Of a stretch of 64,000 nt of DNA, positions 6-39,474 are shown one piece after another. The notes under the pieces are model-generated. The model saw only the letters and a program-made list of their open reading frames with translations, was not told the DNA's origin and made no database searches. The translations under genes and the position numbers were made by a program. The first letter of the stretch is position 1; each line of letters starts with the position of its first letter. Source of the stretch: Pelagibacterales bacterium SAG-MED20 (GTDB lineage Bacteria > Pseudomonadota > Alphaproteobacteria > Pelagibacterales > Pelagibacteraceae); NCBI GenBank assembly GCA_014653975.1, contig JACWDR010000001.1, positions 1 through 64,000 of the forward strand, given 5' to 3'.

Positions 6-899
6 ATGAGCACTACAATAAAAAGCAACTTACCTGCACTTTCAAATGAAGGTGGTCTATCTGCCTACCTTGAGCAAATTAAGAAGTTTCCAATGTTGGC
101 TGCGGAAGAAGAATATATGTTGGCTAAAAATTGGAAAACAAATGGTAATGTTAAAGCAGCTGAAAAACTTGTGACAAGTCATCTTAGACTAGTTGCTAAA
201 ATTGCTATGGGTTACAAAGGATATGGTCTTCCAGTAAATGAAATGATTTCAGAGGGAAACGTTGGTTTGATGCAAGCAGTCAAAAAATTTGAACCTGAAA
301 AAGGTTTTAGATTGGCTACATATGCGATGTGGTGGATTAGGGCTTCAATTCAAGAGTATATCTTGAGATCTTGGAGTTTAGTTAAGATAGGAACAACTAC
401 GGCTCAAAAAAAATTATTTTTTAATTTAAAAAAAATAAAAAATCAAATTGCACCTCAATCAGAGGGAGATTTAAGACCTGAGCATGTAAATGAAATTGCA
501 AATAAATTAGATGTTAGTGAGAATGAGGTGGTTTCAATGAATAGAAGGCTTTCAGGTAAAGAGTTTTCTTTAAACGCACAGATTGGAGAAGATGGAGATG
601 AATGGCAAGATTGGTTGGTAGATAAAGAATTAGATCATGATCTTAAATTTTCACATCAAGAAGAAATGGAGCAAAGAAGAGGTTTGTTGAAAGAGTCAAT
701 AAAAATTTTGAATGATAGAGAACGAGAGATTTTATATTCGAGAAGATTAAATGATGATCCCACAACTTTAGAAGATTTGAGCAAAAAATATAAAATTAGT
801 CGAGAAAGAATCAGGCAAATAGAAAATAAAGCTTTTGAAAAACTTCAAAAACATATGCTAATTTCTGCTAAATCTAAAAATTTACTACCAGTAAACTAA
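6..899 (+). CDS. rpoH: RNA polymerase sigma-32 factor RpoH
   Basis: Sigma-70 family region 2 ([18 protein letters not shown]...[49 protein letters not shown]) and region 4 HTH; RpoH-type. Confidence 0.95.
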
Positions 900-2188
900 G
901 CTTCAAAAGGGTTTTCTAAAAGAATTGTATCTTCTCTTTCTGGGCTTGTTGAAATACTTGATACTTTGGTACCAATAAAATCTTCTAATGCATAAATATA
1001 ATTTTTAGCATTTTCTGGAAGTTTTTCTATATTCTTAATCCCTTGAGTGGTAGTTTTCCATCCAGGAAACGTCTTATAAATAGGTTTAATTTTTAGTTGG
1101 TCTTCGACAGCAGCTGGAAGATAATTTATCTTTTTCCCATTTAATTCATATTCAACGCATACTTTGATTTCATCTAACTCATCAAGAACATCTAATTTAG
1201 TTAATGCGATTCCATCAATTCCAGAAATTTTAATTGTTTGTCTAACTAAAACTCCATCGAACCAACCACACCTTCTTTTTCTACTCGTTACAGTTCCAAA
1301 TTCTTTACCTCTTGAACCAAGTAATTCTCCAGTTTTGTCATTTAATTCTGTGGGAAAAGGACCTTCACCTACCCTAGTAGTATATGCTTTTGTAATACCG
1401 AGAACGTAATGAATAGAATTTGGTCCACAACCAGTGCCTGTTGCAGCACTAGATGCAACGGTGTTTGATGATGTTACAAAGGGATATGTTCCGTGATCTA
1501 CATCTAGCAAAATTCCTTGAGCTCCCTCAAATAATATTTTTTTTTTTTGTTTTTTAAATTCGTCGATTCTAAGCCAAACTGGTTGAGAAAACTTTAATAT
1601 TTCTGGGGCTATTTTTAATAGGTCTTTTTTTAATTTTTCCTTTTCAAAAATTTTTTTTCCCAAGCCTTTTCTAATTGCATTATGGTGAAGAAGAACAGTT
1701 TCTAATCTGTGATCGAGATTGCTTTCAGATCTTAAATCCATAACGCGAATAGACCTTCTGCCAACTTTATCTTCATAAGCTGGTCCAATTCCACGCCTAG
1801 TAGTACCAATTTTTCCTTTACCTGCTGCATCTTCTCTTATTTCATCCATTTCTCTATGAAAAGGTAAAATAAGATTTGCAGATTCTGAAATAATGAAATT
1901 ATTTACATTTACCTCAACTCCTTTAGATTTAATTTCTTCAATTTCTTCTAACAAGGCCCAGGGATCAACTACAACTCCATTTCCAATGATAGAGATTTTG
2001 TTTTTTCTTACAATCCCAGATGGGAGTAATCTTAATTTATATGTAATCCCATCAATTACTAATGTGTGCCCTGCGTTGTGTCCTCCTTGAAAACGAATAA
2101 CAACATCCGCCTGATTTGACAACCAGTCAACTATTTTTCCTTTTCCTTCGTCTCCCCACTGTGAACCAACGACTACTACATTTTTCAT
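896..2188 (-). CDS. purA: Adenylosuccinate synthetase
   Basis: [21 protein letters not shown]-loop, [14 protein letters not shown], full length 430 aa. Confidence 0.98.
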
Positions 2189-3000
2189 TATTTAAAATTT
2201 TTTTTTATTGTTATTGAGCTTAAATGGTTTATTGGACCATGGCCTTTACCAAGGTTAAGGTTAGATCTAATAGATTTGTTTACATACTTAGTGGCTAGCT
2301 CACAAGAATTCTTTAAGCTTTTTCCACATGAAAAGAATGTAGATATAGCAGATGAAAGTGTACATCCTGTTCCATGTGTATTACTAGTTGTAATTCTTTT
2401 ATTTTTAATGACCATAATTTCTTTTTTATTTACAAAAATATCTTGAACAATTTTAGAATTTAAATGTCCACCTTTTATAAAAACATTTTTAGCCCCTAAG
2501 TCAATTAATGTACTTGCTGCATGAATCATGTCTTCTTTAGTTTTTATTTTAATTCCAGCTAATATTTCAGCTTCAGGGACATTTGGTGTTATTAAACTAA
2601 CTTTTTTTATTAGCTTATTTTTTAATATTAGAATTGCCTCATCATCAATTAGCTTGGCACCCCCTTTTGCAACCATTACTGGATCTAAAACTACCTTTTT
2701 AACTTTAATTAAGTCTAATGAATTAATTACAGATTTAATTACTTTTGAAGAATGCAGCATCCCGATCTTTAAGGCATCTGGTTTAATATCTTTTGAAGTA
2801 AATTCAATCTGATTAGAAATTTCTTTAGCGTCAATGGGGATTATTGATTTAACACCAGTTGTATTTTGAGTTGTTATTGCTGTTATTGCAGTCATTGCAT
2901 ATGAACCTAAAGCAGTTATGGTTTTAATATCTGCTTGAATACCCGCTCCACCAGATGAGTCCGAACCTGCTATAACTAATATTTTGGATTTAGGTTTCAA
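2188..3000 (-). CDS. thiD: Hydroxymethylpyrimidine/phosphomethylpyrimidine kinase
   Basis: [41 protein letters not shown] and [11 protein letters not shown] motifs. Confidence 0.95.
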
Positions 3001-3001
3001 T

Positions 3002-4333
3002 TTATCTAATTCTTTTTTTTATAATTTTAACACATTTTTCAAGTAGCTTTTTATTTTCACTTTCACCCATTATTCTAATCTTAGACTCTGTTCCAGATTT
3101 TCTTACCAATATTCTTCCGATTCCTTTAATTAGTTTTTCCGCTTTTTTTATGGCACTTTTTACTTCACCGTTATTAATTATTCTCTTATCTTTTACTTCA
3201 ATATTTTCTAATATTTGAGGTGTTTTTTTAAAAGTGTCAAAAAAGATACTAGCTTTTTTTCCTTTTCTTAGAGAAAATAAAGTCTCTAGTGCAACTAGTA
3301 ACCCATCACCAGTCGTTGCAAATTTACCTAAAATTATATGTCCAGACTGCTCTCCTCCTAAGTTAAAGTTATTTTTTTGCATTTTTTCTTTTACATATCG
3401 ATCACCAACATTAGCCCTTAAAAAATTTATCTTTTTTAATTTAAAAAAATTTTCTAAACCATAATTAGTCATCAGGGTTCCAATAACACCTCCTTTTAAC
3501 ATTTTTTTCTTTTTCCATCGAATAGCTAGAGCAGCAATTATCTGATCTCCATCAATCACATTTCCTTTTTCATCACACATGATTATTCTATCTGCATCAC
3601 CATCAAGAGAAATTCCAATACTTGCTTTATACTTTCTTACTGCAGATTTAATCTTATTAGGGAATGTTGAGCCACAATTTTTATTGATATTTAAACCATT
3701 TGGTTTTATTCCAATTGCAATTACATTTGCACCTAGACTTTTTAATAATTTAGGACCTGCTTTATATCCAGCACCATTTGCACAATCAATTACTATTTTT
3801 ATGCCTTTAAGGTCAAAACTTTTAGGAAAATTTTTTTTTAATATTTTAATATAGTTTTCATTTGCATTTTCTAATCTTTTAACTCTTCCTAATTCTTTTG
3901 GCTTTAATAAATTATTTTCAATATTCTTATCAATTAAATTTTCTATTCTTTTTTCAATTTTGTCTGATAATTTTAACCCGTCTGGGCCAAACAGCTTTAG
4001 TCCATTGTCATAATATGGGTTATGAGATGCTGTAATCATAATTCCCATATTTGCTTTCATAGTTTTTGTTAGCATCGCCAAACCGTTAGTAGGTAAAGGT
4101 CCCAGTGTAAAAACATGCATTCCTGCTGATGCGAGTCCCGAAACTAATGCAGGCTCGAGTGTATAGCCAGATAACCTAGTATCCTTAGCAATTATTGCTA
4201 TTTGTTTCTTTTTTTTTTGACTATTGAAGTATGTTCCTGAGGCTAGCCCAAATTTGAAAAACATATCTCCATTAATATGTTTGCTATTTACAGTTCCTCT
4301 TATTCCGTCTGTTCCAAAATATTTTTTTTTCAT
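3002..4333 (-). CDS. glmM: Phosphoglucosamine mutase
   Basis: KYFGTDGIRGTVN, GIMITASHNPYYDNGLKLFG, DGDADR. Confidence 0.96.
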   Translation of the reverse strand: MKKKYFGTDGIRGTVNSKHINGDMFFKFGLASGTYFNSQKKKKQIAIIAKDTRLSGYTLEPALVSGLASAGMHVFTLGPLPTNGLAMLTKTMKANMGIMITASHNPYYDNGLKLFGPDGLKLSDKIEKRIENLIDKNIENNLLKPKELGRVKRLENANENYIKILKKNFPKSFDLKGIKIVIDCANGAGYKAGPKLLKSLGANVIAIGIKPNGLNINKNCGSTFPNKIKSAVRKYKASIGISLDGDADRIIMCDEKGNVIDGDQIIAALAIRWKKKKMLKGGVIGTLMTNYGLENFFKLKKINFLRANVGDRYVKEKMQKNNFNLGGEQSGHIILGKFATTGDGLLVALETLFSLRKGKKASIFFDTFKKTPQILENIEVKDKRIINNGEVKSAIKKAEKLIKGIGRILVRKSGTESKIRIMGESENKKLLEKCVKIIKKRIR

Positions 4334-35506: not shown

Positions 35507-36166
35507 CTAATTATGTCCCATTTCATTTAAAACCATAAAGCTTTGAACATATTTGGAGAATTTTTGATTTCTAACATTAAAGTTTAAATTATACATTTTG
35601 TTTCTTACATATTCGCTATTTTCATTTGAATATTTAAACTCTAAAATATTATTATTTAAATCAGCGAGATTTCTAAAAAAATTCCCTTCTGAATTTTGAT
35701 GAGTTTTAATTTTTTGATCAAATGTAATTCTAAGTTTTTTAGCTGTATCAATATAATAGTCTCTATTATAAGATACACTTAATACCTGAACTAAATTTAA
35801 AGAAGTTACCTCAAATATTTTATTGATAAATTTATCGGTTTTTAAAAAATTATTTAGATCATTTTTATCTTTAAATTTACCTAAACTAATCTTAGTTTTT
35901 TGGGTTGTTTGATTAATTTTTGTTTTTTTTTCAAAAAATACCTCTGAATTGTTAATATCATCATACCACCTTACTCTATATTTATTCCTATTAGAGTAAC
36001 CATTAATATTATCCCATAGACAATTTAAATCGATCGTATCATAATAAATTGAGTTAACCCTTCTATTAAAAAATATCTTTTTAAAAAAACCTTGAATCTT
36101 AAGATGATCTATTTTTCTTTGATCCCCTGGTAAAAATATAAATTTTTTTTCTATTCTTTGTTCCAT
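35507..36166 (-). CDS. VTC (polyphosphate polymerase)-domain protein
   Basis: RIEKKFIF N-terminus, VNSIYYDTIDLNCLWDNINGYSNRNKYRVRWY, VFFEKKTK, FKYSNENSEYVR: VTC/CYTH tunnel-like motifs. Confidence 0.78.
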   Translation of the reverse strand: MEQRIEKKFIFLPGDQRKIDHLKIQGFFKKIFFNRRVNSIYYDTIDLNCLWDNINGYSNRNKYRVRWYDDINNSEVFFEKKTKINQTTQKTKISLGKFKDKNDLNNFLKTDKFINKIFEVTSLNLVQVLSVSYNRDYYIDTAKKLRITFDQKIKTHQNSEGNFFRNLADLNNNILEFKYSNENSEYVRNKMYNLNFNVRNQKFSKYVQSFMVLNEMGHN

Positions 36167-36178
36167 CTTTAATATTTT

Positions 36179-38737
36179 TTAATATAATATCGAGTTAATA
36201 TATGAATTAGTTTCATTGCCTAAAATATTATTTTCATCAATAATTAATGAAGATTTTTTAGATTGAAGAATTTTTTTTTCATTAATTGTAAAATTTGTTA
36301 AATTTAAAGTTGGGACTCCATACTCTTTTTTTTTATTAAATAAAGCAATATCATATTGATTATTTGAAGAATAAAAATTTTTTATATATGATCTAGATCC
36401 ATCTTTAACCGCAATTGCTAATTTGCTATTTTGAACTTTGAATTCTTCAATTTTGACAACAGAATTTTCACCTATACTCAACCCTTTATCTAAAGAACGA
36501 TCAATCTCTAGCCCTACACCGTTTACATCAGCTCCTGAAATATCCATGCAATCATTTTCTATTTTTAAACAATAAACTTTATTAAATTTAACAATACCAA
36601 AATCTATATCAATTCCATCAGATTGAATGTTTTCAAGATAAATATTTTTTAAAGATGCGTCAGAACTTATTAAATTTATTGCATCTTCACTTTTTGACTC
36701 TCTTAAGATTAAATTTTCTAAGAGCACATTAGATTTAATAAAATTTAATCCAGCAAATAAAGTATACTGATCAAGTTTTGGATAACCTAAATTTTCAAAT
36801 TTCGTATTACTAATTTCAACGATATTATTTTCAAAGATTATTGAACCTGTGCTATCTGATTTTACTAAAATTTCTTTTTTATTGGTTCCTTCAAATTTAA
36901 TATCTCCTTTTACAAATAGTATGGAGTTTTTTGACAATTCGATTATTACATTTTCTTTTATAATAAAATTTTGATTTTTTTCAGTGTAAAAATTTTTATC
37001 CAAATTTATATTATTAGAAATTCTAAAAGTATTTTTTGAAATTTTTTCTACGCCAGGGTGAGTAGCAAGATTGATAAAATCTTTAGATATATTAGTAATT
37101 TTTTTTTTTGACATAGTGAAATCTTCCGACAAAAGATAAGGGATATTACTTTTTCCAAGTAAAATTTTTTTACAACCATTGTCCCAGTCAATAGTCATAT
37201 TTCCAGCCAGATAAATCACCTGCTTGATACTATTATCACAATCATTTGTAGTAATTTTTACTGGAAAATCTGAATAATTATCTTTAAAAAATAATTTTTT
37301 ATTTTCTAATGATATTTTAAAATGATCAAAATTTATTGAATTAATTTTGTTCTTGATTAATTTTGCTCTATCAAAAATAATCTTATCATCAAATAAATAA
37401 GGACCCAAACCTTTCCTTGATATTTTATCAACTTTAGAATTTTCTGAATAAACAGACAAATTAAATGTATCCAATTCATCTTTAATTTCTTCTAAAAATT
37501 CATTAATAAAATTATCAGAAGAATATAGTTCAAGATAATAAATATATTTTTCTAGAAAATTTGAATTTAGCTGACCATTTTTCAATTTAAAAAATTTTAA
37601 ATACCAGCTTTTATCGTCACAAATATAAATACAATTTGGTCTATTTTCTTGTAAAAAATCCGCAAGTATAAAATTTAAAAAGTTCCCTGCTCCAACATGA
37701 GCATCATATCCTATAGGCTCAAATTTAGAAGATATTGGGTTAAAATATAATCTAACACTTTTAGACAATGATCCGTGATAAGACCCCAATAAATCTATTA
37801 CTGCAAAATAACTTGCCCATTTATCTATATCAAAATGATTTTCAAAATTTAAATCATCGTTGTCCTTAATTTGGTTTAATATTGAAAAAGCAGACTTTGT
37901 CAATTCTGGATATTCTTTAAACCAATAAGACTCAGAATATAGTTCATAGTTTACATTTGGATAATGCTCGCCTATACCTTCATCTAAACTAAATATTGGA
38001 CCATTTCTTTTTTTTTGTCTTTCTAGTAATTCTTTTGAAAAACTTTCTTCTACAGCGTACACTCCTCTATTTTCATCATTAAAGTAAAGATTGATTGGAA
38101 AATAATTTAGGTAGAGATTATTAGTTTTTTTAAGTAATTTGTGAAATATAAATTCATATGCATAGTTTTTAGTTATTGGTTTTTGAACAGAAAACTCTTC
38201 CATACCCCAAAGTCTATTATCTCCAATTAAATCTAATTTATATGAAGAGGTAAGCTTATCTTTCCAATGAATTGGCCTTCCACCCTTAATTCTTATTTTT
38301 GCCTTATATTTTTTTTCTTTATTTTGAATTTCAAGCGGATGCATGCTTCGAAATTGAGGTGGTAATAAATTATCATTTTCTTCTTTCAGTTTTCTTTGAA
38401 TTTCAATTTGAAGAATGGTTTTTTGATTTACTTTTAGATACAATTTTTCAATTTCTGGTTTATTAAAAAAATATTTGATTTTAATCTTAGTTAAATCTAA
38501 ATATTTATTATATTTTAATAAATTAACTCCAAGATAAGGGTCCAAAATTTTATTATTTATTATAATAAATAAAGATTTTGCAGAATAAGTATTACCTATA
38601 CCACTTGAAGAATAATACGTACCAGCTGAAATAATAATAACTAAAAAAATAAAACCTAATCCTAATAATAGTTTAGTAAATAAAGATTTTATAAAAAGTA
38701 AATAACTAGAATTTAAAATTTTTTTTTTTATTAACAA
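36179..38737 (-). CDS. CotH-like kinase-domain protein with C-terminal parallel beta-helix
   Basis: KAKIRIKGGRPIHWKDKLTSSYKLDLIG, YFPINLYFNDENRGVYAVEESFSKELLE, FEPIGYDAHVG; C-terminal repeat-rich right-handed helix-like region; N-terminal TM. Confidence 0.75.
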   Translation of the reverse strand: MLIKKKILNSSYLLFIKSLFTKLLLGLGFIFLVIIISAGTYYSSSGIGNTYSAKSLFIIINNKILDPYLGVNLLKYNKYLDLTKIKIKYFFNKPEIEKLYLKVNQKTILQIEIQRKLKEENDNLLPPQFRSMHPLEIQNKEKKYKAKIRIKGGRPIHWKDKLTSSYKLDLIGDNRLWGMEEFSVQKPITKNYAYEFIFHKLLKKTNNLYLNYFPINLYFNDENRGVYAVEESFSKELLERQKKRNGPIFSLDEGIGEHYPNVNYELYSESYWFKEYPELTKSAFSILNQIKDNDDLNFENHFDIDKWASYFAVIDLLGSYHGSLSKSVRLYFNPISSKFEPIGYDAHVGAGNFLNFILADFLQENRPNCIYICDDKSWYLKFFKLKNGQLNSNFLEKYIYYLELYSSDNFINEFLEEIKDELDTFNLSVYSENSKVDKISRKGLGPYLFDDKIIFDRAKLIKNKINSINFDHFKISLENKKLFFKDNYSDFPVKITTNDCDNSIKQVIYLAGNMTIDWDNGCKKILLGKSNIPYLLSEDFTMSKKKITNISKDFINLATHPGVEKISKNTFRISNNINLDKNFYTEKNQNFIIKENVIIELSKNSILFVKGDIKFEGTNKKEILVKSDSTGSIIFENNIVEISNTKFENLGYPKLDQYTLFAGLNFIKSNVLLENLILRESKSEDAINLISSDASLKNIYLENIQSDGIDIDFGIVKFNKVYCLKIENDCMDISGADVNGVGLEIDRSLDKGLSIGENSVVKIEEFKVQNSKLAIAVKDGSRSYIKNFYSSNNQYDIALFNKKKEYGVPTLNLTNFTINEKKILQSKKSSLIIDENNILGNETNSYINSILY

Positions 38738-38748
38738 TATTTTCCTCT

Positions 38749-39474
38749 TTATTCATAAATTCCTGTTCTTGAATAAACATGAATAGAAATATTTTCTTGA
38801 TTTGTTTTTATTTTTTCGACAGTTCTCATAAAAGTATTAATTCTATTTTTTTCTACATCAAACCAAAAAACGTATTGTGAGATATTTTTTTCAACACGAA
38901 ATGATTTTAATTTTAAATATAATGTTTCTGATTTTAAACTTTCAATTATCTTTTCTATACCATCTTTACTGTCAGTAATTTCAATTTGCATAACATTTAC
39001 AGAACTGTCACTCAAATTTTGACTATTTTTTTTATCATCATAATATTTTTTTACAAATAAAATAATAATTATAAAAAAAGTACATATTATTGAAACTAAA
39101 AATTGATTTGCTCCATTCGCTAATCCAATACCAATAATAAAAAATAAATAAACTAATTCTTCTGGTTCTTTTATTGCTGCTCTAAACCTTACTATAGATA
39201 ATGCACCAACTAATCCAAGAGATAAAGCTAAAGAAAACTTTATCACTGTAATTACTAGAGTTGTTATTATTGCTAAAGGTATAAAGGTGTCAGAAAAATA
39301 AACTCTATCATTAAGAGTCCTAGAAAGCTTTATATATGCTGATTTTATAATTAAAGCTAAAAAAGCTGAAACTAAAATAGCAATTATAAAATTGCTGTAA
39401 CTTATGTCTGGTGCAGAATTTAAAATAAAACTTTCTAAGTTTTTTAAATTTGAGTCTAATAAATTTTTTTCCAT
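38749..39474 (-). CDS. DUF4956-family membrane protein
   Basis: IKFSLALSLGLVGALSIVRFRAAIKEPEELVYLFFIIGIGLANGANQFLVS. Confidence 0.85.
   Translation of the reverse strand: MEKNLLDSNLKNLESFILNSAPDISYSNFIIAILVSAFLALIIKSAYIKLSRTLNDRVYFSDTFIPLAIITTLVITVIKFSLALSLGLVGALSIVRFRAAIKEPEELVYLFFIIGIGLANGANQFLVSIICTFFIIIILFVKKYYDDKKNSQNLSDSSVNVMQIEITDSKDGIEKIIESLKSETLYLKLKSFRVEKNISQYVFWFDVEKNRINTFMRTVEKIKTNQENISIHVYSRTGIYE

Follow-up and report, generated by a model that had tools for sequence, protein, structure and literature searches.

The minus strand of Pelagibacterales bacterium SAG-MED20 carries, within the stretch of 64,000 nucleotides analyzed here (the window), three contiguous open reading frames at positions 35507–39474, and the question raised by this locus is whether their products—a VTC protein, a CotH-fold/beta-helix fusion and a DUF4956 membrane protein—constitute a unit and what such a unit might do. 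A sequence-only reading had described three consecutive minus-strand frames from these families, the first two of 219 and 852 aa; the coordinates and sizes match, and all three families are real as judged by Pfam and homologue-profile evidence. The features are listed in Table 1. Intergenic gaps are 12 and 11 bp, and the TTG start of the 852-aa protein is backed by aligned N-termini (MLIKKK in the window, MIIKKK in locus L075 and MLIKKK in L078). The membrane-spanning layout envisaged earlier also holds in the hydropathy predictions, with no transmembrane (TM) segment in VTC, three to four in DUF4956 and an N-terminal anchor on the fusion; a simple threshold for an N-terminal TM segment is passed by 17 of 20 CotH proteins. 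The source genome is 0.98 Mb in 66 contigs and 71% complete, the listed order-mates being 1.0–1.5 Mb, and the G+C content of the window is 21–33%, with 21–26% over most of 32–54 kb.

Table 1. Positions of the three genes and of the domains and residues discussed in the text.
Feature	Coordinates	Strand	Remarks
VTC/TTM protein, predicted polyphosphate polymerase	35507..36166	-	219 aa, no TM segment; PF09359
CotH-fold/right-handed beta-helix fusion, exported	36179..38737	-	852 aa, TTG start
N-terminal membrane anchor of fusion, residues 18-36	38630..38686	-	hydropathy
CotH-like domain, about residues 85-480 of fusion	37298..38485	-	profile match to 5jd9
His321 codon, aligned to CotH catalytic Asp228	37775..37777	-	alignment
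Asp345 codon, aligned to CotH catalytic Asp251	37703..37705	-	alignment
Beta-helix region, residues 600-822	36272..36940	-	22-residue ladder of invariant D/E/K/S
DUF4956 membrane protein	38749..39474	-	241 aa, 3-4 TM + C-terminal soluble part; remote MgtC similarity

The trio forms a single unit that is portable and inherited together. Of the 198 genomes searched in the order, 21 have VTC, 21 the middle protein and 25 DUF4956, and the three sets of genomes largely overlap; we read most of the single occurrences, from their coordinates, as contig ends. Twenty loci were fetched, and the three genes are contiguous in all 19 that are uncut. Eighteen of these intact loci have the order DUF4956, CotH-beta-helix, VTC on one strand, and in the nineteenth CotH is encoded on the other strand; of the 18, two have a further gene separating DUF4956 from CotH, and one has a further ORF ahead of VTC. 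The genes of the trio recur in 27–31 loci and any other neighbour cluster in at most 10. A scan of 399 genomes in the phylum gave nine VTC genes above the cut-off, in seven genomes, and each of these has a DUF4956 gene no more than 5 kb away. The association, also described earlier for other bacteria, is strongly non-random. Protein distance matrices of the three genes correlate at r=0.85–0.90 (P=1e-4, with species relatedness not removed). Between DUF4956 and CotH in one sub-branch of the cassette lies a family of about 340–350 aa with no Pfam match (L084 10546–11595 and L085 6822–7844).

Placement in a glycan island, which had suggested cell-envelope decoration, is true of the window copy—surrounded by genes for an FkbM methyltransferase, an LIC_10190 membrane protein, GT2 and GT4—but is not general, and some copies are situated between ilvC and leuA. 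At L080 and L082 the cassette (in L082 together with the further ORF) is flanked by the ilvC stop on one side and by a conserved promoter sequence of leuA on the other, and at L079 it occupies this site too, succeeded by a leuA 5′ fragment, a GT2 gene, a PMT_2-type gene and an intact leuA. In cassette-free genomes the ilvC-leuA spacing is 82–105 bp in five of seven, and the remaining two showed no leuA in the flank beyond ilvC. From this empty-site comparison it follows that the three genes are able to relocate together, with no need of glycan neighbours. The duplicated leuA fragment of L079 (11020–11118; 33 codons, 76% identical), just after the cassette, is possibly the scar of a second insertion. 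Near the cassette of L087, seven same-strand ORFs of 101–138 aa stand in a row (168–3317). There were no PADLOC matches that would indicate anti-phage defence, and a search for phage carriage gave no match in phage records.

These patterns bear on a simple role in phosphate storage, according to which VTC and DUF4956 would build up a polyphosphate store, with the exported protein a passenger unrelated to that task. We consider this very improbable, as the CotH fusion is co-inherited as tightly as the other two proteins by the correlations given above, and travels with them to new sites. Consistent with storage are a pairing of DUF4956 and VTC with a phosphate transporter gene in two alphaproteobacteria, described below, and the failure to find PPK1 in 11 of the 15 cassette genomes searched (the window genome being, as noted, incomplete). 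Among 25 genomes of the order that were searched PPK1 is patchy: it turned up in four of the 15 with the cassette and in four of the 10 without. The cassette was considered as a PPK1 replacement and this was rejected: PPK1 was not found in 11/15 and 6/10 of the two groups alike, and there is therefore no clear link.

The window VTC protein matches PF09359 with E=3.6e-26 (92.6 bits against a cut-off of 23), and the family profile matches yeast Vtc4 at 2.4e-14. Seventeen invariant residues of the window protein were mapped onto Vtc4, and the equivalents of R264, R266, K281, K294, R361, R373, E426, K428, S457 and K458 are invariant in 20 of 20 VTC copies. These include R264, R266 and E426, whose combined substitution (R264A/R266A/E426N) impairs the yeast enzyme (PMC9911596), and K458, which has been termed catalytic (PMC4641920); the polymerase residues of VTC are intact. 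Three of the four positions of the acidic patch of TTM hydrolases could be mapped, with R4 and K178 basic like Vtc4 and E6 kept where Vtc4 has T198. The window VTC protein is likely, from its residues, to be a polyphosphate polymerase. Yeast VTC couples polyphosphate synthesis to translocation (PMC9911596), and the cassette shares with the Vtc4/Vtc1 complex a tunnel domain having the same catalytic residues and a separate membrane component alongside. It differs, however, in lacking both an SPX domain and a Vtc1-type membrane domain, and DUF4956 is an unrelated membrane family; export would be by analogy only.

The membrane component matches PF16316 at E=3.5e-17 (63.1 bits, cut-off 30.6) and also matches MgtC, at 0.0038; the DUF4956 family is matched by 19 of 19 homologues and MgtC as well by five of the 19. 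DUF4956 is present without VTC in some genomes. Two alphaproteobacterial loci (L106 and L107, genomes G280 and G296) have a run of DUF4956, VTC and PHO4 phosphate transporter genes without CotH, and in Paenibacillus cellulosilyticus (L125 6935–10353) VTC and DUF4956 are followed by an extracellular carbohydrate-binding Cthe_2159 protein, with no adjacent CotH seen. We read the DUF4956-VTC pair as the core, its partner being either phosphate uptake or an extracellular glycan-type protein. The DUF4956 proteins of L106 and L107 form a diverged subfamily. On psymA of Sinorhizobium meliloti (L126 3260–5630) DUF4956 directly follows a caspase-domain protein, and that stretch has no VTC match.

The window 852-aa protein alone has no match to Pfam CotH, and a single-sequence AlphaFold2 model of it was unusable (pLDDT 34.5). 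A profile of 20 homologues has Bacillus CotH (5jd9/5jda) as its sole PDB match, with E=4.7e-17, or 2.5e-13 for the CotH core alone, and four of the 20 homologues match Pfam CotH, the best at 9.7e-13. Bacillus CotH has been proven to phosphorylate coat proteins, and its activity requires Asp228 and Asp251 (PMC7821199). These two positions (B. subtilis numbering) were located via their 23-residue spacing, which is shared by two Asp residues in the aligned Bacillus sequence. The Asp251 equivalent is kept in 18 of 20 order-level copies, the window included, and lost in two, whereas the Asp228 equivalent is His in 18 of 20, again including the window; His is also found there in five further copies fused to a beta-helix. 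Asp is kept at this position in the canonical-type CotH proteins of L113 (an LTD-CotH), Pseudobutyrivibrio, Planococcus and Nonomuraea. The window-type protein thus resembles the spore-coat kinase in homology over about 340 residues by profile and in its Asp251 equivalent, and differs in having His for Asp228, a membrane anchor, a beta-helix fusion and no spores. The earlier designation as CotH-kinase-like stands as to homology and the second Asp, but the kinase reading is weakened because of the His substitution. This change makes a kinase function less likely, and this part of the protein could be a non-kinase, though the His could still serve as base.

The C-terminal region of the window protein scores below the cut-off for Pectate_lyase PF03211 (E=0.0013, 18.8 bits against 25), and the same region of its relatives matches Beta_helix at 1.8e-11 and NosD at 9e-6; there is also weak resemblance to GH28 and polysaccharide lyases. 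A beta-helix profile searched against PDB gave nothing real (best 0.34) and no lyase structure, and direct comparison with the Paenibacillus Cthe_2159 protein showed no similarity. A coil period of 22 residues shows in the positions that 90% or more of the copies conserve, with 11 pairs at lag 22, a number that 20,000 random placements never attained. The beta-helix is the part under the strongest constraint, because its 223 residues hold 15 invariant positions and the 381-residue CotH region holds six. The right-handed beta-helix, a domain typical of proteins that act on sugars, is clear in relatives, but the proposal that it is a mere substrate-binding module is weakened, since the densest invariant acidic and Lys residues of the whole fusion lie here, together with the weak polysaccharide lyase and GH28 likeness.

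These same observations raise the alternative that the active component is the beta-helix, as a Ca2+-dependent enzyme of lyase or epimerase type acting on acidic exopolysaccharide, with CotH a degenerate substrate-binding scaffold and VTC/DUF4956 concerned with regulation by phosphate status. The invariant D/E/K ladder, the faint likeness to PF03211 and GH28, the His at the Asp228 equivalent with Asp345 lost in two of 20 copies, and the Paenibacillus pairing of VTC-DUF4956 with a carbohydrate-binding protein and no adjacent CotH all agree with it. We nonetheless regard it as rather unlikely: CotH is present in most other cassettes, even those without a beta-helix, the beta-helix profile has no PDB lyase match, and the Pfam lyase scores are under cut-off.

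The earlier description of the cassette as undescribed does not survive, as the literature already treats the combination as an accessory of pel and includes knock-outs (PMC7112168, PMC12345266). Streptococci, clostridia and bifidobacteria have genes for CotH, a polyphosphate polymerase and DUF4956 adjoining their pel operons (PMC7112168). In Streptococcus intermedius, deletion of SIR_1592 or SIR_1594 changes Pel and aggregation, loss of the DUF4956 gene raising Pel and loss of CotH lowering it; for the polyphosphate-polymerase gene SIR_1593 no deletion phenotype is described, and the authors of that 2025 paper did not find the arrangement outside pel (PMC12345266). SIR_1592-1594 (DUF4956, polyphosphate polymerase, CotH-FN3) and the window cassette alike have the three families contiguous in a polysaccharide context (PMC7112168, PMC12345266), with an extracellular CotH, a polymerase domain and a four-TM DUF4956 with a soluble C-terminus. 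They differ in that the order of the window lacks PelG, CotH bears a beta-helix instead of FN3 and has His for the catalytic Asp, and the cassette belongs to a Gram-negative envelope and is inserted at varied sites. PelG was found in none of 198 genomes of the order, and in one of nine other cassette- or DUF4956-bearing genomes (G310), on a separate contig.

The full beta-helix form of the cassette is also present in two other families of the phylum (L109–L112). On a Pseudobutyrivibrio plasmid, CotH-VTC-DUF4956 lies amid glycosyltransferase, acyltransferase and pyruvyltransferase genes, and on a Planococcus plasmid VTC-DUF4956-CotH is followed by genes for a HEAT protein and a chitin-synthase-like GT2. 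NELoc-2 of Clostridium perfringens (PMC2879425) and the Planococcus cluster (VTC, CotH, a protein of ~690 aa, HEAT and GT2) share VTC and CotH with the window, Planococcus having DUF4956 too, and no pel genes are listed near either; unlike the window cassette, these occur with the chitin-synthase-like GT2 and HEAT protein and have CotH without a beta-helix. What is already known, then, is the same gene trio, mainly as an add-on to Pel, a biofilm polysaccharide, in Gram-positive bacteria; what is new is a cassette without PelG, a beta-helix fusion with a 22-residue ladder, and His for the CotH catalytic Asp in most copies.

The opposite effects of the Streptococcus deletions on Pel (PMC12345266) also accord with a signalling module, in which the level of polyphosphate or phosphate is sensed by VTC and the soluble C-terminus of DUF4956 and regulates polysaccharide synthesis, with CotH phosphorylating an envelope protein; the proven coat-protein kinase activity of CotH (PMC7821199) and the pairing of DUF4956 with a phosphate transporter fit as well. 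We judge it improbable, given that the insertions at ilvC-leuA (L080, L082) bring in neither a dedicated regulator nor a glycan synthase alongside the cassette and that the catalytic Asp is replaced in most CotH copies.

A cytosolic polymerase and an extracytoplasmic protein are inherited as a unit, which implies that something would cross the membrane or be signalled across it; by analogy with yeast VTC, polyphosphate would be the natural candidate for what crosses. The reading that we favour, and about which we are evenly divided, is that cytosolic polyphosphate synthesis is coupled via the membrane protein to a CotH/beta-helix protein acting on glycan outside the cytoplasm. VTC, to go by its residues, would make polyphosphate from ATP at the cytoplasmic face, and DUF4956 would be its membrane partner, serving as regulator, conduit or both. 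The CotH/beta-helix fusion would be anchored at the outer face. There the beta-helix may bind or modify an acidic polysaccharide of the surface, and the CotH fold may perform or sense a phosphoryl transfer dependent on the VTC product. Overall, the module would modify a cell-surface glycan or control it, as its homologues SIR_1592-1594 affect Pel. A more specific version, which we think quite improbable, is that polyphosphate exported through DUF4956 is the phosphoryl donor beyond the inner membrane, in surroundings that lack ATP, and that His-type CotH uses it to phosphorylate surface polysaccharide held by the beta-helix.

The CotH/polyphosphate-polymerase/DUF4956 set is thus seen freed from the Pel operon, as a portable cassette standing by itself in another phylum, and the same set is apparently outside pel on Bacillota plasmids as well. 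A predicted eukaryotic-type polyphosphate polymerase in bacteria is thereby linked to the cell surface. The His-for-Asp change and the beta-helix ladder are precise targets for mutants, and the question of how an extracytoplasmic protein of kinase fold might act without ATP becomes testable.
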